A DNA stretch of 64,000 bases from Devriesea agamarum (GTDB lineage: Bacteria; Actinomycetota; Actinomycetes; Actinomycetales; Dermabacteraceae). A program made the position numbers and the translations under genes. Location of the stretch: contig NZ_LN849456.1 in the NCBI RefSeq assembly GCF_900070355.1, positions 1,984,001 to 2,048,000 on the forward strand, in the 5' to 3' direction. Shown here one piece after another: positions 6,432 through 22,177 of this stretch; position 1 is the first letter of the stretch, and each line of letters begins with the position of its first letter. The notes beneath the pieces are model-generated. The model ran no database searches. It was not told where the DNA came from and saw nothing but the letters and a program-made list of their open reading frames with translations.

Positions 6432-7388
6432 GTGACCGAGAACCCGTCGGCGACAAGCCCTCTGCACGACCTCATCATTATTGGCTCGGGGCCCGCGGGC
6501 TACACAGCCGCGATTTATGCTGCCCGAGCTGAGCTTCGACCCATCGTCCTGGCAGGCGCCTTAGAGTCCGGCGGTGCCCTGATGAAGACCACCGAAGTCG
6601 AAAACTTTCCCGGGTTCCCGGACGGCATTATGGGCCCAGACCTGATGGGCAACATGCAGCAACAGGCTGAACGTTTCGGTGCTGAGATCGTGATGGAAGA
6701 TGTGGTTTCTGTCGATCTCACTTCGGACATCAAAACCGCCACTTTAGATGACGGCACGGTCTATCGCGCACGGTCGGTCATTCTTGCAACCGGCTCGGCA
6801 TACCGGGAACTGGGTCTTCCCGATGAACAGCGGCTATCAGGGCGGGGTGTTAGCTGGTGCGCGACCTGCGACGGTTTCTTCTTTAAAGACAAGGACATTG
6901 CGGTGGTCGGCGGGGGCGATAGCGCTGTCGAGGAGGCAACATTCCTCACCCGCTTTGCGTCCTCGGTCACGCTTATTCACCGCCGCGACGCGTTGCGGGC
7001 ATCAAAGATCATGGCTGCCCGCGCCGAGGCCGACCCCAAGCTTTCTCTGCTCTGGAACAAGGAAGTGACCGTGATCCACGGTGAGAACAGCGTTGACGGT
7101 TTGACCTTGCGCGACACTGTTACTGGGGAAAACAGCACCCTAAACGTGTCCGCCCTTTTCGTGGCCATTGGACACCTGCCGCGCACCGATCTTTTCGCAG
7201 GTCAGATTGAGTTGGACTCCGAGGGCTACATTGTCTGCAAGGACCGCTCCACGTACACCTCGGTTGACGGAGTCTTCGCATGCGGCGACGCGGTCGATCA
7301 CACCTATCGCCAAGCGATCACCGCCGCTGGCTCCGGGTGCTCTGCTGCTCTCGACGCTGAACGCTGGCTCGCCGCCCAAAACGATTAG
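6432..7388 (+). CDS. trxB: Thioredoxin-disulfide reductase
   Basis: This FAD/NADPH flavoenzyme reduces thioredoxin in the cytoplasm. The GTG start follows an AAAGGA ribosome site. Visible features are the N-terminal FAD-binding [15 protein letters not shown], the redox-active CATC pair (Cys near 143 and 146, in [11 protein letters not shown]), the NADPH-binding [10 protein letters not shown], and the C-terminal FAD motif VFACGDAVD. The length of 318 residues is normal for the low-molecular-weight family. In actinobacteria trxB is usually followed by trxA and parB; here the thioredoxin-like gene is degenerate, so this reductase may serve another thioredoxin elsewhere. Confidence 0.96.
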
Positions 7389-7753: not shown

Positions 7754-8272
7754 GTGTCGACCGTCCGCAAAAACTCACCCCATGAGGGCCATGAGGGCCA
7801 TGAGGGCCATGAGGGCCATGAGGGCCATGAGGGCCATGAGGGCCATGAGGGCCATGAGGGCCATGAGGGCCATGAGGGCACGATAACCGAGGGTGATGGG
7901 GTGCGCGATATCCGGTCACCCGATATACGACTCATTTTGTTTTTCGCACCAGGCCGCACCGCGTGTAACCCCGCGCGTTTGGCAACCGAAGAGCTTGCGC
8001 AACGATGGGGCGATACGGTCACCACCGTGGCCTGCGATGTTGATCGCTACCCGCGCGTTATCGACGCGTATCGTCTACAAATCCTTCCCACCTGGGTTTG
8101 CCAACAATTCATACCTGGAGAGCAACTACTCGATTCCGACGACAAACCTGCGGGACACGAGATGGACCGGTTAGCGGGATCCGCTGCCAAGCACCAAATC
8201 GCATCCCTGGTCGAAAGATGCACGAATGAAAGCCGAGCACCTAGCCAACGGGACAACCGACTCGACGCCTAG
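7754..8272 (+). CDS. Degenerate thioredoxin-like protein with His-Glu-Gly repeat leader
   Basis: The frame from GTG 7754 gives 172 residues. The thioredoxin fold is recognisable: FFAPGRTACNP aligns with the canonical FWAPWCGPC region, followed by LATEELAQRW and the cis-Pro loop ILPTW (Pro112). The first active-site Cys is replaced by Arg68 and only Cys71 remains, so dithiol exchange is not expected. Residues 10-42 are 11 perfect HEG units. The start is uncertain: GTG at 7901 has a better upstream GAGGG ribosome site and would yield 124 residues, close to a normal thioredoxin, leaving the repeat in the 5' leader. The position after trxB matches trxA in related genomes. The gene may be a decaying trxA or may have been repurposed. 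Confidence 0.65.
   Translation: MSTVRKNSPHEGHEGHEGHEGHEGHEGHEGHEGHEGHEGHEGTITEGDGVRDIRSPDIRLILFFAPGRTACNPARLATEELAQRWGDTVTTVACDVDRYPRVIDAYRLQILPTWVCQQFIPGEQLLDSDDKPAGHEMDRLAGSAAKHQIASLVERCTNESRAPSQRDNRLDA
7781..7879 (+). repeat. Perfect 9-bp tandem repeat, 11 copies
   Basis: CATGAGGGC is repeated eleven times without a mismatch. In the thioredoxin-like frame it encodes (His-Glu-Gly)11. Each unit also contains ATG and a GAGGG ribosome-site-like core. Copy identity implies recent slippage; a 9-bp unit preserves frame. Confidence 0.95.
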
Positions 8273-8582
8273 TTTTCAACGTAGTCGTCAAGCATGCACG
8301 ACGGTACACGTTGAGGACTCGGCCATGGAGAACACAGGTTACTAGTTAGTAATTAAATGGGGAGCTGTTTATATGTTTTGTCACCTATAAGCATATCTAG
8401 GTGTTGTAGTTGTAGATACTGGTTAGCGGTGATTAGTTCTTACATTAGACGGCCACGTGGAATGGGGTTATCTACGCGAGTCTGAACGTAATCGCCTGCT
8501 AGCCTTTGGTGAACTCCGCGTTCGATGCAGCGTATGTCCACCGCAGGGCAACGGATTGGTTAGCAGTTTCTGGTACCCATCA

Positions 8583-8705
8583 TGTGGATAACTTTTGATT
8601 TTGTGAGTTGCTCAGAGTGCCATGACCACGTGAAACGTGGATTATCAACAAAGCCGCCTCGCTATCCACACACCTACACGATTTTGTAGCGTGCGGTTAT
8701 CCACA
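8583..8705. promoter_or_regulatory. DnaA-box cluster outside the dnaA-dnaN origin
   Basis: Perfect boxes are TGTGGATAA (8583-8591, minus) and TTATCCACA (8697-8705, plus). One-mismatch boxes are TTATCAACA (8642-8650) and CTATCCACA (8662-8670). Four boxes in 123 bp, about 11 kb from dnaA, could titrate DnaA or form a secondary origin element. Function is inferred. Confidence 0.6.
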
Positions 8706-8785
8706 GCAGCATCCACTGTTGTGTGTTCTCCTTTGCGGCGATCCTTAGCATCATCATGAACCCACAACAGCGTGTGCAATTTGAG

Positions 8786-8799
8786 GTTTCACGTGACAC
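8786..8799. promoter_or_regulatory. parS-like site, one mismatch
   Basis: GTTTCACGTGACAC differs from the parS core GTTTCACGTGAAAC at one base. It is the leftmost member of the array. Confidence 0.6.
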
Positions 8800-9624
8800 A
8801 CCGGAATCTCCTGACACCGACCAGCTCCGCTCCATTCACCGCAACCGAACTGTCCTGCTCAATGGAGCATAGGGCAGAGGGTCCATCTACCAGATATCCA
8901 GTGCCTCCTTGCGCTCGTCACTTAGGTTGTCTGAATCCTGTGCTGGACGGACCGATGGGGTTACCAACCTGCATAGACCTTAGAATCTTGGCGGACTAGC
9001 GACCTCAATAGGCCCCGCAGACAATGGTTTTTAGACCTCTCTATCACCTCGGCCTAGTCATACTGCACCTGGATGGACCACATCTCGGGTTCCCAGAAAA
9101 CCTATGGCCAAGCGCTTTCACTCTGATCATCACATCATCGATCATGCAAGAATGCGGAACAGTTAGCTTGATCCGTCACAAGTATCCCAACTAACGCAGA
9201 AGATGGACCTTCTGTGATTGCACGGGGAGTAACCCTATGGCTTAGGGCTACTCAAAACCAGGGTCTACCATACGAATGGTGCGATTAGGCTTGGCGAACC
9301 ATAGCGTCGAGCAACGTCGAATGTTCGCTGACATCGGCTCCAAACCAGCGCGAAACCAATGCTAGTACCAACGCCAATGACACCTAATCATTCGCCATTC
9401 ACAAACCGGCCTCGGAGCTAAATACCTTTCTCCGGATCAAGCGATCCCTCCCCACAGATCTAGGATCAAAAGACCAGGCGCATCCTTAGATGGCGACACA
9501 CCCATCTCTTCCTATGAACATCCAATTGCGGGTTGCAGACCTGGCGTACAGAAGGTAGTGCATTCGCCCACCCCTTCACCTCCAGACCTTCACGCAACCC
9601 AGGGAGTCTTCTCTAGATGTTCGC

Positions 9625-9638
9625 GTTTCCCGTGAAAC
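9625..9638. promoter_or_regulatory. parS-like site, one mismatch
   Basis: GTTTCCCGTGAAAC has one mismatch to the parS core, in the central CACGTG. Confidence 0.55.
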
Positions 9639-9921
9639 ATTATCGAATCCACATCTTTATGGGCGCTACACTCAAGGACCTGACCGTTCCTAATCGTCTA
9701 GAAAACTCACTTCGTTCTCAAGAATCTGTTATCCCCACCGATAACTAAGTACTTCGATCGGTAGCGTGCAATCATCACTGGTGTAGGGCTTGGGGCTCAC
9801 AGATCACGGATCACGGATCACGGATCAGCTTTGGCACAGGCACCAAAGGATCGGCGAGTACCTACCTGCCGTCTACACACCTGCCCGTCCTGCCTTGGTC
9901 CGTACAGCATCTGTGGTGATC

Positions 9922-9935
9922 GTTTCACGTGAAAC
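9922..9935. promoter_or_regulatory. parS: parS site, perfect 14-mer
   Basis: Perfect palindrome GTTTCACGTGAAAC, the conserved ParB-binding core, followed by A. Confidence 0.88.
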
Positions 9936-10067
9936 AAAAGAACGTGTTCTAGCCTACGATCATGACCTTGCTGGCGCGTTCATGCGCGTCGCAGATCATG
10001 CAGCCTCGTCGAGGCTCTCAATTTGAGGAGCATAGGCGGCAAGTTCGGCGACGTTTACCCTCTTTGA

Positions 10068-10081
10068 ATTTCACGTGAAGC
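10068..10081. promoter_or_regulatory. parS-like site, two mismatches
   Basis: ATTTCACGTGAAGC keeps the central TTTCACGTGAA but differs at positions 1 and 13. Confidence 0.4.
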
Positions 10082-10160
10082 ACGGCAACAAGTTTCGGTT
10101 TCGCTTCAGGATTTGGACAGGAATACCCATTGGTCCATGACTAGATACGCGAGCCATCAC

Positions 10161-10174
10161 GTTCCACGTGAAAC
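10161..10174. promoter_or_regulatory. parS-like site, one mismatch
   Basis: GTTCCACGTGAAAC has one mismatch to the parS core. Confidence 0.6.
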
Positions 10175-10443
10175 CTACCGCCATAGTTTGTGGACAATAC
10201 ACCTCATAGCGTTCCGTGCCATGGTTGGCCACACTCAAGCAGTGACGTCCTATAGGTTCAGAAGCGCGAGCTTTCCTCAGTCTCTATGAGATGCCACTTC
10301 AGAAGTCTCCGAGGTACCTGCGCTGATTATGAGGATCCGGGTGCGAAGAACTAAATCTGAAATGCGAGAGCCATAACCCCGAGGCGAAGCGCTGTGGACT
10401 ATCTTTCGTCCAGAATCTCGATCATGCTGCGTGACAAATACAG

Positions 10444-10457
10444 GTTTCACGTGAAAC
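10444..10457. promoter_or_regulatory. parS: parS site, perfect 14-mer
   Basis: Perfect GTTTCACGTGAAAC flanked by G and C, so the palindrome extends to 16 bp. Confidence 0.88.
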
Positions 10458-10701
10458 CTAAACGGACGCCCTAGATATCAGTCGCCTAACCAAGGAGATG
10501 GAACCTGCAGTAGGTGTCTCATACTGTCTATCCACCTGCTCTACCTGCTCGTCTTCTTAGGGTGAGCATCAAAACTCTTCGTCCTCAACCTAGCGACGTA
10601 CGCAGTAGGTAAACCGCGATGTCACTGCCCAGATCTGAAGGTGGGACATAATTCGATCGAGCTCCAGCTGCGTGAGACTAGTTGGACTTCGCCAGCCTAA
10701 G

Positions 10702-10715
10702 GTTTCACGTGAAAC
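10702..10715. promoter_or_regulatory. parS: parS site, perfect 14-mer
   Basis: Perfect GTTTCACGTGAAAC, flanked by G and A. Confidence 0.88.
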
Positions 10716-11006
10716 AGCGGTATTCAAAAGGAGCTCACGAGAGCATGCCACCTAAAAACCTCGCACATCTCGACGCTAGCGGCCCTGAACCTCGTGGCTT
10801 AGCAAGCCATCGCACCCTTGCTAGGTTTTACCATCGCCGCTTACCGCTCGGCAGCCAGACCTTACATAGCGACAAATTTTTGATCATATCGCTACCTAGT
10901 TCCCCAACTAGGAACTCTGTAGAGGTGGGGCAGCCGCTATCCACCTCGATCACTCGTCATGTTTTCATCTCAGATGGAACCATCGTTAGCTCATCGCACC
11001 CTTCCG

Positions 11007-11020
11007 GTTTCACGTGAAAC
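11007..11020. promoter_or_regulatory. parS: parS site, perfect 14-mer
   Basis: Perfect GTTTCACGTGAAAC, flanked by G on both sides. Confidence 0.88.
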
Positions 11021-11173
11021 GAGACTCTAGACAAACGCTCCGAGAGCCAAGTTCGCGAGAAACCATATCCGCAAAACGCATCATCTCTCGCACAAAAACG
11101 TTTGGCTCACTTCAGACCTACTAAAGCTTGCGCACGGTTTCGTAGAAAACGGCCCAGTCCTTCTACTCGACCG

Positions 11174-11187
11174 GTTTCACGTAAAAC
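11174..11187. promoter_or_regulatory. parS-like site, one mismatch
   Basis: GTTTCACGTAAAAC has one mismatch to the parS core. It lies 69 bp before the perfect site at 11243. Confidence 0.6.
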
Positions 11188-11242
11188 ATTCCCAGTCAAC
11201 ACCACTTGCGCAACGTGACCGCGGTATCCGTAGCTACTAGTC

Positions 11243-11256
11243 GTTTCACGTGAAAC
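11243..11256. promoter_or_regulatory. parS: parS site, perfect 14-mer
   Basis: Perfect GTTTCACGTGAAAC, flanked by C and A. Confidence 0.88.
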
Positions 11257-12167
11257 ACATAGGTACCCAACTTGGACAACAGATGCGGCCTAGGTACCGA
11301 ACGGCTCACGGAAAATATCAATCCCCAGAGAGCGACGACGATTCCATCCGCGACTGGCCGCACTTTTCCCTGCTCTCATGAGGTTTCAGGGCACCACGCA
11401 ACGGTGATGCAAAGCCTTAAGGCAACAGGGCAGAGCCATACGGCAACAGCAACTCTTCAACAACAGCCTAGCGCGCAACATCTTCCCCTCAAAGCTCATA
11501 ATGAATCCGATACAGAGCTCCAATCGCCACGGATCCATCTAGTACTACGCAGCACGTCTCAACTCTTGAAGTTTGTTAAAAAACCCTGTGCACCCTCGCA
11601 TCACCGAACGTCGGCTATGTGTCAAGGAGAGTACGACACCTCGCCTTCCCAACAGGACTTACGGTTCCTATATATCGCCGCCTCATGGGGTTTAGGTATC
11701 ACGGGAGGCATTCGACTGCGGTCACGTTGTTTCTACGAGATGCCATTTCCTACAACAGAGATAGGTACCTCATTGGCCCTATCAGCTCAAAGAGAATAAG
11801 CGCCCATCCGAGGTAACAACCTATCCGCGGTAGCACCATCTACTTAGGGCGAGAGTACAACTCCCTAGATCACAACACGCCTATGAGACGTTTCCCTAGC
11901 CTATTGCGCGATGACTAGGTTCTTGGCGGAATACAAACGCACAAACCATGACCAGGTACCGCCTACCATCTAGACATGGTCTTGCCAGCCATCAGAAGGC
12001 GCAGCTGAGCGAATCTGTTCTGGACCAGATCGATACGCTACGACATTGCGGCCCAGCGACGCACCCAGCGAGGCACCAGACGGTAAACAACGGAATCATG
12101 GACGTCGGCTTTCCAGGTCATAAATCGCTGGGTTCTCCGGGCTTCGCATCCTCCAGATGCTCCTCGT

Positions 12168-12181
12168 GTTTCACGTGAAAC
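12168..12181. promoter_or_regulatory. parS: parS site, perfect 14-mer
   Basis: Perfect GTTTCACGTGAAAC preceded by T, as in the Bacillus consensus. It is 93 bp from the next site. Confidence 0.88.
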
Positions 12182-12260
12182 CATGGATGCACGACCGATG
12201 GCGCTCAAAAAATTAGAAGGGTTCCACACGAGTTTTAGGGTAGTTCCGTTTATCCACCAC

Positions 12261-12274
12261 GTTTCACGTGAAAC
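12261..12274. promoter_or_regulatory. parS: parS site, perfect 14-mer, nearest to parB
   Basis: Perfect GTTTCACGTGAAAC, about 545 bp from the 3' end of parB. Confidence 0.88.
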
Positions 12275-12818
12275 CGAGAGCAGCACTGCCCACAGTTTGC
12301 GTCTTGTGGCTTCATCCCTTCTTGAAGCGAGCCGAAGCTGCCAGCAACTGCACGAGGTTTATTCACCGACCACAGCAGAAATAGGCCAAACAATCAAACC
12401 AAAGTGCGACAACGAAGATCCCCGCGCTAGTCCATTCAGGCATATGTTTAGAGAAACCCGGGCTCACACGTGGAGGTCAACATTGACGAGTTGACCCGCC
12501 AAACCACTTGTCACACCCTCACACCGTCAAACATTACAAGCCAAACAACCCTGCCAGACCCGACACACGATGCCCCGCCACACCCTAAAGAGCACTTAAA
12601 CAACACTCTTCACCGTCGCACAATGAGTAGTGGGTGCGATCAGATTCGGCAACCCCAAATCGTCAAACCCAGCCGACCAAGGTTTAAGCCGTACTTAACA
12701 CCTCAAACCACTGAAAACGTGCCGTTCTACTATAGAAAGCTATCGGCAGGCCACCGACAGCCGTGAAACACACACCAGGCGATTGCCAGATCGATCGGCA
12801 CCCATCAGATCGTTCAGA

Positions 12819-14855
12819 TCATTGTTCGTCGATGTGAAGGTCGATTCCCATCCGGTGAGCCAGCTGCTCCAGCTCATCCAGGCTAGTAAACTCCAGAGTA
12901 AGTTTTCCTTTGCGCTTGCCCATGTCGATACGAACCGGAACTTCAAAGCGGTTTGAAATCTGAGAGGTGAGGTCGACGACCCGAGGGTTGTACGTCGTCC
13001 GGCGCGGTGCCGTGCGGCCGCGCACAGGCTGAGTCCCGCCGGCCACAAGCTTTTCAACCGCGCGCACCGACAGTCCCTCGGCGACAATACGTTGGGCCAA
13101 TTCCTCAATGAGGGCGGCATCATCCAAAGAGAGCAAAGCCCGCGCGTGACCCGCAGAGAGCGCACCGGAGGCGAGACGACGCTGAACCAGGGGCGGTAGC
13201 TTCAACAGGCGAAGAGTGTTGGAGATCTGCGGACGGGAGCGTCCAATCCGTTCGCCTAGCTCATCCTGGGTGCATCCGAAGTCATCGAGTAGTTGCTGGT
13301 AAGCGGCAGCCTCTTCCAGAGGGTTCAGCTGTGTACGATGAAGGTTTTCCAGCAAAGCATCGCGCAGAAGATCATCATCGCTCGTTTCACGGATGATCGC
13401 CGGAATCGCGGTGAGTCCCGCTCGCCTGGCCGCGCGCCAACGCCGCTCGCCCATGACCAGTTCAAAAGACTCACCAGCATCGGTAGCGGAAATGGGTCGC
13501 ACCACCACCGGCTGAAGCATTCCAACTTCGCGCAGGGAGTATGCGAGTTCATCGAGCTCGTCGTCGTCAAAGATCGTGCGTGGGTTCCGCGGGTTCTCGC
13601 GAATCTCTTCAATCGGAATTTCAGCGAATTCAGCGCCAGGTACCGACACCAAATCAGGCCCATCATTGATAACCGGGGCGGGCTGATCCTGAGCGTCACC
13701 AGAGCTCTTCGGCGTACTGGCGGCAACCGGCGCTCCCTTCCCAGCCTCAGCCCCCTTGGATCCCTGATGATCCTGCGCACCCTTAGTAGCTCGCACATCC
13801 GGTGCAGTCTGCGCGTCTTTCGCTTCCTCAGCAGGCTTAGTTCCAGCCGTCCCTTTCGCGCTGGTCAGGCTCGGCGACGTACCCGTCGTCCCAGATGCTG
13901 TGGGCGTCAAGGACGCCTTCTTAGAATCGGAAAGACTGTCCTGACCATCACTAGTATCCGGTGTGGATGCCTTGGCCTGAGCGGTTATAGATGCTTTAGC
14001 CTTGGCGGCTCCAGATGCTTCGGTCTTACGGTCACCAGACGCCTTGGCACCAACGTCCTCACCGGCGCTACCGCCAGTGCTCTTGGTCGTGCCACCTGAA
14101 GCCTTTGTACTGCCACCGGGACTCTTGGTGGCCTTCGTGGCCCGACCCCCAGCGGAGCCAGCGGTTACCTTCGTTTTCGACGGTTTTACAGCACCAGGTA
14201 CCTGACCAGAACCCGCCACGTCAGCATCACCCGTCAGCTTGGCACGACTCGTCGCCTTGGCATTACCCGCAGCCTGAGCGCCACCGCTCGTCGTTGCAGC
14301 ACCCTCTGACTTAGCATCATCGCCAGACCGGGCACCACTAGATGACTTAGCAGCCCCCGTTGGTTGAGCAGCTGCGGTAGGCTCCGCGCTACCGCTGGCC
14401 GCGGCAGACCTGCTCGACTTTTTAGTTTTAGCCGGTGTCGCCGACGTAGCAGCTTTGTCCGCAGACGCAGCGCCACCCGTTGCACGGGATCGGGCAGTAC
14501 GTTTGGCACCGTTCTTCCGCTCGGCGGCGGCACGCGCCATGTCTTCAGCAAGATCTCGACGCACGCCCGACGACCGTGTTGTTCCCGACCCGGAATCTTT
14601 CACGACGTCGGAGTCGACCGGCGGGCCGGAAAAGAACATATCGACGGGCCTGCGAGCGGCTTTAGAGGATGTGGCCGCATTCTCGCGTATCCCATCGCCT
14701 TCCTTCACCTGTGTCTTCGGTGAGGGTTGGTCGGCCGCATCTGCCAAGGAGTCGTCAGACTCGTGCGCCGGGGTGCGCACCTGAGTCGTGGGCCTGGTCG
14801 CCGCACCGGGAATGAGTGCGCCAAGACCTCGTCCGAGTCCTCGCTTTTGGGTCAT
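12819..14855 (-). CDS. parB: Chromosome partitioning protein ParB with very long low-complexity linker
   Basis: ParB is a CTP-dependent clamp that loads at parS and spreads to form the partition complex. It starts with the ParA-interacting motif MTQKRGLGRGLGALIP. The ParB N domain begins near residue 408 (FAEIPIEEIRENPRNPR), with the CTP-binding GERRWRAARRAG near 468, the helix-turn-helix CTQDELGERIGRSRPQISN near 527, and a C-terminal dimerisation domain to 678. Typical actinobacterial ParB has about 280-350 residues. The excess is a segment of about 330 residues (roughly 75-405) made almost only of Ala, Ser, Thr, Gly and Lys. ParB is the last gene of the leftward rpmH operon and faces the parS array. 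A 207-bp gap separates it from parA, so it may also have its own promoter. Confidence 0.95.
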   Translation of the reverse strand: MTQKRGLGRGLGALIPGAATRPTTQVRTPAHESDDSLADAADQPSPKTQVKEGDGIRENAATSSKAARRPVDMFFSGPPVDSDVVKDSGSGTTRSSGVRRDLAEDMARAAAERKNGAKRTARSRATGGAASADKAATSATPAKTKKSSRSAAASGSAEPTAAAQPTGAAKSSSGARSGDDAKSEGAATTSGGAQAAGNAKATSRAKLTGDADVAGSGQVPGAVKPSKTKVTAGSAGGRATKATKSPGGSTKASGGTTKSTGGSAGEDVGAKASGDRKTEASGAAKAKASITAQAKASTPDTSDGQDSLSDSKKASLTPTASGTTGTSPSLTSAKGTAGTKPAEEAKDAQTAPDVRATKGAQDHQGSKGAEAGKGAPVAASTPKSSGDAQDQPAPVINDGPDLVSVPGAEFAEIPIEEIRENPRNPRTIFDDDELDELAYSLREVGMLQPVVVRPISATDAGESFELVMGERRWRAARRAGLTAIPAIIRETSDDDLLRDALLENLHRTQLNPLEEAAAYQQLLDDFGCTQDELGERIGRSRPQISNTLRLLKLPPLVQRRLASGALSAGHARALLSLDDAALIEELAQRIVAEGLSVRAVEKLVAGGTQPVRGRTAPRRTTYNPRVVDLTSQISNRFEVPVRIDMGKRKGKLTLEFTSLDELEQLAHRMGIDLHIDEQ

Positions 14856-15062: not shown

Positions 15063-15998
15063 CTAGCCGATAGCATTCATAGCGATCTCTCGCGCCGCTA
15101 CCCGGTAGGCGATTGCCCCGGAACTGCCTGGATCGTATGAGAGTACCGTCTGCCCGTAACTCGGTGCCTCGGACACCCGAACCGAACGCGGAATAGTGGT
15201 TTCCAAGGTCTGCTCCGGGAAATGTGCGCGGACATCGTCGGCCACCTGGGAGGCCAGACGAGTTCGCCCGTCGTACATGGTGAGCAAAATGGTGGACACC
15301 ATCAGCTCAGGGTTGAGATGAGCCTTAATCAGCTCAATGTTCTTCAGCAGCATGCTCAGCCCCTCCAGTGCGTAGTACTCGCACTGGATCGGAATCAGAA
15401 CTTCACGGGCTGCAACCAACGCATTGACCGTGAGCAGGCCGAGGGACGGCGGGCAATCAATCAGCACATAGTCCAGTCGCTTCTGCCCTATATTTTCGCG
15501 CTCGCGCACATATTCAGCGATGGCATTCTTTAACCGGTTCTCCCGGGCCACCATGGACACCAGTTCAATCTCGGCGCCTGACAGCTCAATGGTCGCCGGA
15601 GCGCATTCGAGATTCTCAATATCCGGGCAGGCAGCTACCACATTCATCATGGGGACCGAATCAACCAGAACGTCATACATGCTCACGACGCCGGAATGGT
15701 GATCAACGCCGAGGGCCGTGGAGGAGTTGCCCTGCGGATCCACGTCGATCACCAGCACATTCATGCCCCCTGTGGCCAGGGCGGCGGCGAGATTCACTGC
15801 GGTTGACGTCTTGCCGACCCCACCTTTTTGATTAGCGACGGTGAAAATCCGGGTCTCAGCTGGGGTGGGAAACACTTGCCCCTCCAGTTCCCGACGACGG
15901 GCGTGGTCTTGCTGCAACTGCCGCAAAAGGGGGGTATCGGCACCGATATCGGCGAGTGGTCCGTCGGAATCGGCGGCCTTCGCGGACTCATCGACCAC
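15063..15998 (-). CDS. parA: Chromosome partitioning ATPase ParA (Soj)
   Basis: This is a deviant-Walker ParA ATPase that binds DNA nonspecifically and moves ParB-parS complexes. GTG at 15998 has an AGGAG ribosome site. Visible motifs are the Walker A KGGVGKTS (residues 58-65), VLVIDVDPQGNSSTALG, and the Walker B YVLIDCPPSLGLLTVNAL. The length of 311 residues is normal. An N-terminal extension of about 50 residues (ADTPLLRQLQQDHARRREL) precedes the ATPase, as in many actinobacterial copies. It overlaps the end of rsmG by 11 bp, implying translational coupling. Confidence 0.96.
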   Translation of the reverse strand: MVDESAKAADSDGPLADIGADTPLLRQLQQDHARRRELEGQVFPTPAETRIFTVANQKGGVGKTSTAVNLAAALATGGMNVLVIDVDPQGNSSTALGVDHHSGVVSMYDVLVDSVPMMNVVAACPDIENLECAPATIELSGAEIELVSMVARENRLKNAIAEYVRERENIGQKRLDYVLIDCPPSLGLLTVNALVAAREVLIPIQCEYYALEGLSMLLKNIELIKAHLNPELMVSTILLTMYDGRTRLASQVADDVRAHFPEQTLETTIPRSVRVSEAPSYGQTVLSYDPGSSGAIAYRVAAREIAMNAIG

Positions 15999-19443: not shown

Positions 19444-19888
19444 GTCGTTCTCCTGGTGAAAGGACTGGACGTCTTAGGGGTGCTGAGCTGGTCCGGGTTG
19501 AGCCCCTAGGCGCATTCTCCGGTCGCCTACAGCACAGACTTGTCCACGATACGCACCGTCTCCCGACCGGTCAATTGCAATGGTGCAGGTCAGACGGTTT
19601 GTGGTCGGTATCTCATGTGGATCTGTCCCACATCAGCCCGCTCTGTAGGCCGATCACTCATCCACAGTTTTCACATTCAACAAAATCGCTCTGATCACTG
19701 GTCTTAGCTGCGACGGACAGGAATCGGCGGTTGTTTATCCCCAAAAGCTATCCCCATATGAGTGTCATAAGCCTCTGCCCTGAGGGGTCTGTGACCTGTG
19801 GTCCCGTCCATTTAAACGCCGTCAGCTTCACAGGTGTGAAACTATGTGGATAACTAAGTGGACATCGCACCTGCCGACGGAAGACGAG
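19444..19888. promoter_or_regulatory. rpmH-dnaA divergent region with DnaA boxes
   Basis: This is the promoter region for both rpmH (leftward) and dnaA (rightward). It includes one perfect DnaA box, TGTGGATAA (19845-19853), and near-matches TTGTCCACG (19540-19548), TCATCCACA (19658-19666) and TTATCCCCA (19735-19743). A palindrome TTCACA-GG-TGTGAA (19827-19840) lies just before the dnaA start region. DnaA boxes here fit autoregulation of dnaA and a bipartite origin. Confidence 0.7.
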
Positions 19889-21517
19889 ATGACGACGGAT
19901 ACCTCTGACCCAGATGAGACGTGGACCCGGTGTCTCACCCGCTTGCGCCAGGACGACCGAATCTCCGAGCGCGCGATGGCCTACCTGACGTTCTCCCGCT
20001 TGATGGGCTTCTTCGGTGACACAGCATTGATCGCTGTTCCCGCCGAATATGCCAAAGACCTGCTAGAACAGCGAATCCCCGAGGTGATGAGGGAAGTTCT
20101 TTCGCAGGTTCGTGAACGGGAGACGTCCTTCGCTGTCACCATTGATAAGAACCTCTTGGAGGGCGGAGACGACAACGACGGAATGCCTCATCGAGGGGCT
20201 TCCGCCGCACGTTCGTCGGAGCCACAGCGGCCCGCTGTTACTCCCACACCACCGCCGAGCCCCACTGTGGATAACGCTGTGGATGACATGCCGATAACTG
20301 CGCGGCCCATCCCGTCTCAGCATGGCGTGAGTGCTGGTGATAGAACCTCCGCACCGGTCATGCCGACTGTGCATTCAGATATCCCCGTCCGCCCACATCT
20401 GGATCGTCCGCGCACCGATGCCATGCCTGCGACGCCACCGGCAGAGGACGGTGGGTCCACTCTCGGATCGCAATCCCGACTAAACTCAAAATACACTTTC
20501 GACACATTTGTGATCGGTGCATCAAATCGCTTTGCTCAAGCCGCAGCCTCGGCAGTGGCCGAAATGCCTGCTAAGGCCTATAACCCTCTATTTATCTATG
20601 GCGGATCCGGGCTTGGAAAAACGCACCTGCTGCATGCGGTCGGACACTACGCAACCTCGCTGTTCCCGGGCATCGAAGTGCGCTATGTGAACTCCGAAGA
20701 ATTCACCAATGACTTCATCAACTCCGTGCAGTCCGGCCAGTTCGGTAAAGCGCAAGAGTTCCATAAGCGGTACCGCGATATCGACATCCTGTTGATCGAC
20801 GATATCCAGTTCCTTCAGCGTGCCCCGGAAACGATGGAAGCCTTCTTCCATACGTTCAACACGCTGCACAACGAGAACAAGCAGATCGTCATCACCTCCG
20901 ACCTCCCCCCGAAGCAGCTCGGAGGTTTTGAGGACCGGATGCGTTCCCGGTTCGAGATGGGGCTGATGACGGATGTGCAACCACCCGACCTCGAAACCCG
21001 AATCGCGATTTTGCGGAAAAAGGTGGAGATGGAAGGAAACCAGGAAGTTCCCCGCGACGTCCTGGAATACATCGCATCCAGAATCTCCACCAATATTCGC
21101 GAACTGGAAGGCGCGCTGATCCGCGTACAGGCGCTACATTCCCTGTCGCGCCAGCCGATGGATGTTTCGCTCGCAGAATCCGTGATGAAAGATCTTCTCG
21201 CCAATGAAGATGCCGGCGAAGTGACCGCGACGGACATCCTGGCACAGACCGCCGCATACTTTGGTCTGAGCGTGGAACAGTTGCAGGGAACCGCCCGCAC
21301 CCGCGTGCTAGTTACCGCTCGTCAGATCGCCATGTATTTGTGTCGCGAACTGACGGACCTGCCTTTGATCCGGATCGGCCAGGAGTTCGGTGGGCGTGAC
21401 CACACCACAGTGATTCACGCGAACAAGAAGATTTCGCAGCTCATGAAGGAGCGCCGCGCGATTTTCAACCAGGTCACGGAACTTACGGCCCGGATCAAGA
21501 ACGGCAGCGGACGCTAA
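19889..21517 (+). CDS. dnaA: Chromosomal replication initiator DnaA
   Basis: DnaA is the AAA+ initiator that binds DnaA boxes and melts oriC. The start is placed at ATG 19889 ([16 protein letters not shown]) because GGAAG lies just before it; ATG 19844 is in frame but overlaps a DnaA box and would add 15 residues. Domain I is at residues 1-90 and the variable Pro-rich domain II at about 90-205. The AAA+ domain has the Walker [16 protein letters not shown] and the Walker [11 protein letters not shown]. The C-terminal DNA-binding domain contains the DnaA signature [16 protein letters not shown]. The 542 residues are normal for actinobacteria. Confidence 0.97.
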
Positions 21518-22177
21518 CTGGGAGAGAACCTGCGTGGGGCACCGGCTCTACCCCAGATACCGGCACGGAACGTCACCTGGATCAGGTACGTCGCTGTATG
21601 CGACGCAGATCACGGTAAAAGCGCACTACGGAATGACATCCCACGTCAGAGACGTTTATCCCCACTGTGGATAATTCTGTGGACAATGTGGAGCAAGGAA
21701 TTGTTGTCGCAGGAACCGAATGACAGCAATGTGAACAGCGTTCAAACGGCTCGGTGAAGCATCCACAGGGTATCCACGAAACCCACCGGAGAATCCACGA
21801 TCGGTGCACGGGCCCGTTAGGGCCTGTGATCAGGGAAAACATGTGTTTTCCACAGGATCAACAGCCGTTAATAAGCTGTATTTCTTTCTATAGCCGATCA
21901 GATGTGGATGACGAGCAGTGCTGCGCCAAGCTCGCGAAAAGGCTCGGACGGGTCCTCACATGGGCAGACCATGACCGCGCAGGCGAGACTCCGGCTAAGG
22001 TGGAGTTCCCGGTAATGCACAGCTGATGCGCACGTGAGATGCAGATCCTCAGACCACACCAGCGCGCAAACCGGGCCAGGACAGCACATTTGGTCTGAAG
22101 ACCTGACCAGATAAAGCCCTATTTTGCCTGAATATGACCGAAAAACACTCGATGACAACGTGAAGGAAGTGGCGACG
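21518..22177. other. oriC: Putative replication origin oriC (dnaA-dnaN intergenic)
   Basis: This 660-bp gene-free interval contains perfect DnaA boxes TGTGGATAA (21666-21674) and TGTGGACAA (21678-21686), adjacent near-matches TTATCCCCA (21656-21664) and TGTGGAGCA (21687-21695), and further one-mismatch boxes TTTTCCACA (21846-21854) and TGTGGATGA (21903-21911). An AT-rich stretch near 21863-21900 could be the unwinding element. Actinobacterial origins usually lie here. Confidence 0.85.

Follow-up and report, generated by a model that had tools for sequence, protein, structure and literature searches.

A dense parS array beside parB as a probable compact chromosomal centromere in Devriesea agamarum, with DnaA boxes at its edge and no Smc-ScpAB found in its genome

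We analysed a stretch of 64,000 nucleotides from Devriesea agamarum (contig NZ_LN849456.1, positions 1,984,001 to 2,048,000, hereafter the window, numbered from its first base), in which copies of the partition site parS are packed into non-coding DNA next to parB. The array at 8786-12274 is probably, at a likelihood that we put at about 80%, the compact centromere of the chromosomal ParABS system, which would load ParB, be driven by ParA, be flanked by DnaA and operate independently of Smc. The array is most naturally read as a compact chromosomal centromere because no other parS locus was found in the chromosome, it is non-coding, it adjoins parB and its place is kept throughout the family Dermabacteraceae. 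The original prediction, made on the window alone, had compared the array with a point or regional centromere; the likeness to a compact chromosomal centromere holds on the grounds just given, while the comparison with a point or regional centromere is an analogy only.

When the parS 14-mer GTTTCACGTGAAAC was counted in the window with up to two mismatches, 12 copies were found, all of them at 8786-12274. Seven are perfect (9922..9935, 10444..10457, 10702..10715, 11007..11020, 11243..11256, 12168..12181 and 12261..12274), four carry one mismatch (8786..8799, 9625..9638, 10161..10174 and 11174..11187) and one carries two (10068..10081), in agreement at every site with the positions and mismatches originally predicted. 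At up to three mismatches the 64 kb hold 13 matches, 12 of which are inside the array, while shuffled sequences gave an expectation of 2.29 and 7 at most. The complete genome (2,958,880 bases in a single contig) shows no parS with two or fewer mismatches outside the 12 array sites; this genome-wide count, which the original prediction had proposed, thus reveals no similar density elsewhere on the chromosome. The reversed pattern is met by chance at 6 places in the same 2.96-Mb genome at this tolerance, and the complete lack of stray parS-like words beside these 6 could reflect an avoidance of stray parS. The array lies ~10 kb from dnaA and hence shows the several parS copies near oriC by which a chromosomal ParABS centromere is recognised. 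A plasmid origin of the array was also considered and dropped, as comparison of the array region with a plasmid collection gave no near match.

The sites stand in a gene-free zone (8273..12818) that extends from a trxA-like gene to parB, two genes that converge, and that is devoid of coding potential. Indeed, the longest stretch of the window without a coding-like segment is 8069-12821, which measures 4753 bp against 642 bp for the next. Eight open reading frames (ORFs) occur inside the zone with coding scores below those of real genes; the five that were tested against Pfam had no match and an Rfam search of the zone returned no match up to an E-value of 1, so that hidden genes were rejected and the predicted concentration of the sites in DNA free of genes is borne out. 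The guanine-cytosine (GC) content of the zone, 51.6% compared with 59.5% for the window, is what one would expect if the zone were junk or the remnant of decayed genes, with parS-like words that had arisen by duplication or chance. This explanation is refuted by conservation, and we attach practically no credence to it: parS is confined to the zone within the genome, the direct repeats of the zone centre on parS except for eight two-copy families of 14-21 bp, the ORFs tested lack Pfam domains and, as described below, the family keeps 10-18 sites while the spacers diverge.

The array was then compared among 25 Dermabacteraceae genomes, namely the window genome and 24 relatives, with the duplicate contig L091 of genome G001 dropped. 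In this sample genus g5 was read as Brachybacterium, and loci L115 and L117 were treated as the same genomes as G016 (Brachybacterium equifaecis) and G006 (a Dermabacteraceae isolate). In all 25, the interval between parB and trxB carries 10-18 parS at up to three mismatches; the comparison with related genomes that had been suggested therefore finds the array at the same place each time, and a dense array at parB-trxB is a family-wide trait. The arrays span 1.2-3.5 kb, with the exception of G003, whose 13 sites are spread over 6.7 kb, and up to 16 parS are found within 1.2 kb in relatives. By mean spacing the window array is the second sparsest of the 25, hence the exceptional density first attributed to it does not hold within its family. 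Nor is support found for the premise that parS sites are usually dispersed, since clustering is common in bacteria according to passages of PMC8357415.

Outside the family, 77 named loci were surveyed over the surroundings of parB, up to ~10 kb per side. Their densest 3.5 kb contain at most 10 parS, with a median of 4, and their sites are found mostly to the parA side of the ParB core (281 of 378, with 96 downstream); the parA side is the richer one at 59 loci, the downstream side at 11, and both are equal at 7. Among these, the Arthrobacter loci L131 and L149 have 8 and 7 parS downstream of parB. Occultella glacieicola (L153, taken to be the same genome as G036) has ten parS in ~2.1 kb on the parA side together with two partial Smc matches, and no parS was detected in the 8.5 kb of the short contig L138, the sole Bifidobacteriaceae locus.

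Within the family, conservation is centred on the sites themselves. All 216 matches (E up to 1) between the window interval and the other family intervals overlap parS, and in aligned family pairs the in-register parS are 83-93% identical compared with ~42-44% for the spacers; the identity of the sites is partly so by construction because they were picked as parS-like. Past close pairs the alignment of registers between species fails, 7 of 9 pairs having 0-4 sites in register. The spacing of sites is more even than random placement in 20 of the 25 arrays (P below 0.05). Helical phasing of the spacing was rejected, no period from 10.0 to 11.0 being significant (p 0.075-0.99).

Brachybacterium displays a particular profile: of the 211 sites counted across 16 genomes 5 are perfect parS, and any perfect 14-mer is present in 2 of 38 genomes. 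Its arrays (L075-L089 and L093) consist nearly entirely of imperfect sites, whose mismatches are mostly A/T to G/C changes at half-site positions 2, 4 and 6. After correction for base composition, and counting sites with mismatches only at these three positions, Brachybacterium prefers perfect over one-mismatch sites by ~1.3:1 whereas the other genera favour perfect ones ~30-fold. Active avoidance of perfect palindromes was thus rejected once base composition was weighted; given that sites with no or one mismatch are about equally kept, a loss of preference combined with GC drift is sufficient to account for this profile.

The search for Smc covered 39 genomes, 14 of them from other families. 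The Smc profile returned only noise in the window genome (31 bits), and in 24 of the 25 family genomes the best match was 36 bits or less. Smc was above the cut-off in 11 of the 39 genomes, which are G003 and ten of the 14 from other families; the remaining four (G031, G035, G036 and G038) were matched only partially, at 211-555 bits, and in three of these the match is split into two pieces starting near the first base of a contig. ScpA was detected in one of 47 family genomes (one of 42 of good quality) and ScpB in one of 25, G003 in both cases, while both were found in all 14 genomes of other families. Hence the genes for Smc, ScpA and ScpB, all of which a genome with a Smc-loading centromere would encode, were not found in the window genome. 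According to excerpts of a review whose genomes include B. faecium, almost every actinobacterium has Smc and Scp proteins (PMC4255298). The smc gene of C. glutamicum can be deleted with no apparent growth phenotype, as reported in part of PMC11898615, and the loss of Smc in an actinobacterium is therefore not implausible.

In a midpoint-rooted tree of ParB, ParA and TrxB the 24 Smc-less genomes group into a single clade (support 1.0) whose sister is G003 (0.61). The tree covers 38 of the 39 genomes; G038, whose parB contig was not fetched, was left out of it and of the density comparison. At up to two mismatches the densest 3.5 kb hold 10-18 parS in the 24 Smc-less genomes and 0-10 in 14 Smc-bearing ones, which are G003, with 8, and 13 of the 14 from other families (rank test, p 4.5e-7, relatedness being ignored). 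The link between the loss of Smc and the density of the array is no more than suggestive.

These results bear on the possibility that the array is a standard parS cluster selected mainly because it confines Smc-ScpAB loading to a single place, which avoids collisions between loop extruders. Smc loading is an established role of parS elsewhere, and avoidance of collisions has been put forward as one argument for keeping parS together (passages of PMC8357415 and PMC7083940); such a role may have held in an ancestor, as G003 possesses both Smc and an array. However, Smc-ScpAB is undetectable in 24 of the 25 family genomes, the complete window genome included, each of the 14 other-family genomes has ScpA and ScpB together with Smc, whether full or partial, and the densest arrays belong to the Smc-less genomes. 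Since its genes were not found in the genomes of the Smc-less clade, the array cannot load Smc-ScpAB there, and collision avoidance does not explain the present clustering. For the window genome of today this explanation is largely refuted and we consider it improbable.

The JetC/MksB subunit of an MksBEF-type complex was found at 1140 bits or more in all 24 Smc-less genomes. The JetC profile does not separate conserved MksB from Wadjet copies, as a divergent copy in G014 reached 1222 bits; in direct comparison, however, JetC is 69-77% identical to that of the window genome in all 23 other Smc-less genomes. By the same measure the JetC of G029 (1143 bits) is 29% identical, only a 26%-identical JetC is present in G003, and JetC above 700 bits occurs in 5 of the 14 genomes of other families. 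JetA, JetB and JetC, which a Wadjet system also has, were all confirmed in the window genome; there a permease-like gene, an alkyltransferase-like gene and a further ORF lie between them (L209 6093-15417; the inserted genes are named from their translations). In several relatives, too, JetC is several kb away from JetB and JetA. With the window genome counted, JetB (64-81% identity) was found in 19 of 24 and JetA (65-75%) in 15 of 24 within the stretches fetched around JetC, outside of which the missing ones may lie. The JetD nuclease that stands beside JetC in Wadjet was not seen near the conserved JetC in any of the 24, the surroundings being partial for some (contigs end near JetC in G022 and G011) and no genome-wide search for JetD having been made; it does adjoin the divergent copies of JetC in G014, G020 and G003. 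Because MksB is conserved in the Smc-less clade with no JetD nearby, the conserved group would represent a condensin-like MksBEF handed down by vertical inheritance, and not Wadjet defence.

This raises the question of whether MksBEF replaced Smc-ScpAB and took over its ParB-guided loading at the array. The conservation of MksB in every Smc-less genome, with JetB and JetA in many and JetD absent from the vicinity, would fit such a replacement. The present data, however, contain no link between MksBEF and ParB or parS, and passages of PMC7022226 state that MukBEF has no known specific loading factor elsewhere and that MksBEFG plays no part in folding the C. glutamicum chromosome. We therefore regard this explanation as unlikely, although less so than Smc loading.

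Both partition proteins appear canonical, ParB by its Pfam domains and solved homologues and ParA by Pfam. The gene parB (12819..14855, minus strand) encodes 678 amino acids with the ParB_N, HTH_ParB and ParB_C domains and is the single match of a ParB search of the window genome; parA (15063..15998, minus strand; AAA_31/CbiA) adjoins it. Residues R141 and G169 of the ParB core, mapped through solved homologues, are invariant across 12 aligned sequences; we take them to be R173 and G201 in Caulobacter numbering, residues of parS-type recognition. The low-complexity N-terminal linker between the GLGRGL motif and the core measures 389 amino acids (13641..14810, minus strand, ends approximate). 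Its median length is 313.5 amino acids in 28 family loci (165-411) and 94 in 77 others (14-228), with overlapping ranges; these counts omit loci with no detectable GLGRGL motif, include L115 and L117, which repeat genomes already counted, and use L091, the second G001 contig, to stand for G001 in place of L090, where no motif was detected. Such a long linker could affect condensate formation or the reach of ParA.

From these elements we infer how the compact centromere would work. ParB dimers would bind parS, close into clamps upon binding cytidine triphosphate (CTP) and slide outward, and, with 12 loading sites within 3.5 kb, ParB would cover the zone densely at all times without invading genes. 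Little transcription is expected through a zone on which trxA and parB converge. After replication, ParA would pull the ParB complexes apart, and the condensin that remains may be the JetD-less MksBEF.

The edge of the array opposite parB carries a cluster of DnaA boxes, defined here as TTATCCACA with up to one mismatch. Two are perfect, at 8583..8591 (minus strand) and 8697..8705 (plus strand, 80 bp before the first parS), and two have one mismatch, at 8642..8650 and 8662..8670 (both plus strand). Across the family, the segment from trxB to the first parS contains at least two boxes in 25 of 25 genomes and at least one perfect box in 21, and the last box stands at a median of 137 bp from the first parS. 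Family totals amount to 30 perfect boxes where dinucleotide shuffles predict 0.02, and to 78 at up to one mismatch where they predict 1.8. Moreover, perfect boxes of the family are ~8 times denser within 400 bp of parS (28 in 59 kb) than in the remainder of the fetched stretches (21 in 357 kb), and of the 66 pairs of boxes that share a strand and stand within 40 bp of each other, 31 show an offset of 12 bp. At the sequence level, the window thus shows the DnaA boxes at parS that mark a Caulobacter-type centromere. The cluster probably binds DnaA, and would then either couple initiation to segregation or hold DnaA near the origin.

Outside the family the picture is less uniform. At least two boxes occur within 400 bp of parS at 16 of 75 loci (mean 1.6 and maximum 8 for 300 permuted words), yet boxes there are not denser near parS, with 64 in 206 kb compared with 385 in 1143 kb, in stretches that often include dnaA, and only 7 of 61 loci have at least two boxes in the parB-trxB interval. 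The Micromonosporaceae loci L160, L191 and L193 resemble Dermabacteraceae in having four boxes among parS, within 2 kb downstream of parB.

Clusters of DnaA boxes such as datA and those of B. subtilis serve as loci of DnaA titration or control, and the boxes beside the array could be of this kind and merely share a safe non-coding zone with parS. Perfect boxes are indeed few in the whole window genome (19, and 10 for the reversed word): two are at the array, three belong to dnaA with its flank, another three are near 2.147 Mb and the rest are single; tandem box pairs would also suit titration. The three near 2.147 Mb form another cluster within 0.6 kb (genome 2146452-2147044). A role in control could further be seen in the sole promoter-like match in 8000-13000, which overlaps the boxes on the minus strand; four such matches are expected by chance, so a promoter role of the region is possible and not favoured. 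Nevertheless, the presence of at least two trxB-side boxes in every family genome at so short a distance from the first parS suggests a positional link, proximity alone being no proof. A plain titration locus is thus a serious possibility, to which we give about one chance in three or slightly better.

Alternatively, the boxes together with AT-rich DNA could mark a second or relocated replication origin beside the centromere. The lowest-GC 60-bp stretch (30%) of window positions 1-30000 is found at 8339..8398, ~185 bp before the boxes, and as seen above no family genome lacks boxes there. However, the gap between dnaA and dnaN has DnaA boxes of its own and the second-lowest-GC 60-mer, clusters of boxes also lie 7-9 kb away on the dnaA side in L115 and L117, and no clear switch of GC skew is seen at the array. 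Because of these features of the dnaA-dnaN gap and because low GC beside the array boxes is inconsistent among relatives, a second origin is not favoured and seems most improbable, even slightly more so than Smc loading.

Several observations weigh against the reading of the array as a compact, Smc-independent and DnaA-flanked centromere. Concerning the boxes, those listed in the window lack the 12-bp tandem found in relatives, one or two boxes also lie on the parB side in 11 of the 25 intervals, so that the flank is not one-sided, one to three are inside the array in 7 of 25 with the window included, and the 16 non-family loci with boxes near parS suggest that the association is maybe a broader feature. 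Concerning the array, that of the window is unevenly spaced (coefficient of variation 0.93) and Occultella, with 10 parS per 3.5 kb, equals the count of the sparsest Smc-less genomes. Finally, as the loss of Smc is one event, the link between this loss and density amounts to one coincidence in the phylogeny, and the location of the array is older than this loss since the Smc-keeping G003 has its array in the same place.

The surrounding genes are ordered murJ, an unassigned gene, trxB, the trxA-like gene, the array, parB, parA, rsmG, jag, yidC, rnpA, rpmH, dnaA and dnaN; some names were tested with Pfam, others were read off translations, and rpmH is assumed from its position. The trxB gene (6432..7388, plus strand), of the thioredoxin reductase type, has a Pyr_redox_2 domain and is named from homology and position. 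The trxA-like gene (7754..8272, plus strand) is identified by position only and reads towards the array; it includes a 9-bp tandem repeat of eleven HEG-coding units and has no thioredoxin match in Pfam. The dnaA gene (19844..21517, plus strand) was read from its translation, and the gap between it and dnaN (21518..22123) is the likely oriC, ~9-13 kb from the array.

More broadly, Dermabacteraceae minus one basal genus may be a natural Smc-free lineage that segregates its chromosome through a hyper-dense, gene-free ParB-loading centromere gated by the adjacent DnaA boxes, with a nuclease-less MksBEF as its sole condensin. We advance this tentatively, as somewhat less than an even chance; if true, the clustering of parS would have been selected for the assembly of the partition complex itself and not for the loading of Smc. 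The variation in parS copy number and clustering is described as an open question in part of a ParABS review (PMC7333895), and a clade with no Smc-ScpAB found and with the densest arrays seen here separates the function of ParB and ParA from the loading of Smc, making it open to study with naturally evolved arrays and no Smc. The conserved boxes at the edge likewise offer a test, outside Caulobacter, of initiator signalling to the centromere. The box cluster, the loss of Smc-ScpAB in the clade and the imperfect parS of Brachybacterium were all absent from the original prediction, and a literature search with most subscription journals outside its scope returned no report of the family-wide array, its DnaA-box flank or their coincidence with the loss of Smc-ScpAB.

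Dense parS clusters are already known from M. xanthus and C. glutamicum, and an actinobacterium with an MksBEF homologue and no clear Smc-ScpAB has been reported in Bifidobacterium longum. In M. xanthus, 24 parS lie beside parAB, ~30 kb from ori, and ParB binds the consensus in vitro (PMC3778016); as in the window, a multicopy cluster adjoins the par genes near the origin, but it is upstream of parAB there, whereas the parS of the window are downstream of parB, with DnaA boxes at their edge and no Smc found. C. glutamicum is likewise an actinobacterium with one parS cluster, of ten sites, nine of them intergenic, to which ParB binds by chromatin immunoprecipitation sequencing (PMC7083940). Its cluster spans 35 kb, lies 73 kb from oriC and loads Smc, while in the window the 12 sites fit into 3.5 kb, dnaA is ~10 kb away and no Smc-ScpAB was found in the genome. 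Bifidobacterium longum has ParABS and a distant MksBEF homologue and is not among the clear Smc-ScpAB genomes in the portion of PMC10197239 that treats them. It is therefore alike in being an actinobacterium apparently devoid of Smc-ScpAB with an MksBEF homologue; in the clade of the window, by contrast, MksB is well conserved with no JetD nearby and parS forms a dense array. Lastly, in Caulobacter crescentus DnaA binds at the parS centromere and acts in segregation apart from initiation (excerpts of the review PMC6399470, on Mera 2014). DnaA boxes at parS are common to both systems, but those of the window, at which DnaA binding is predicted only, flank a large array and are conserved across a whole family.

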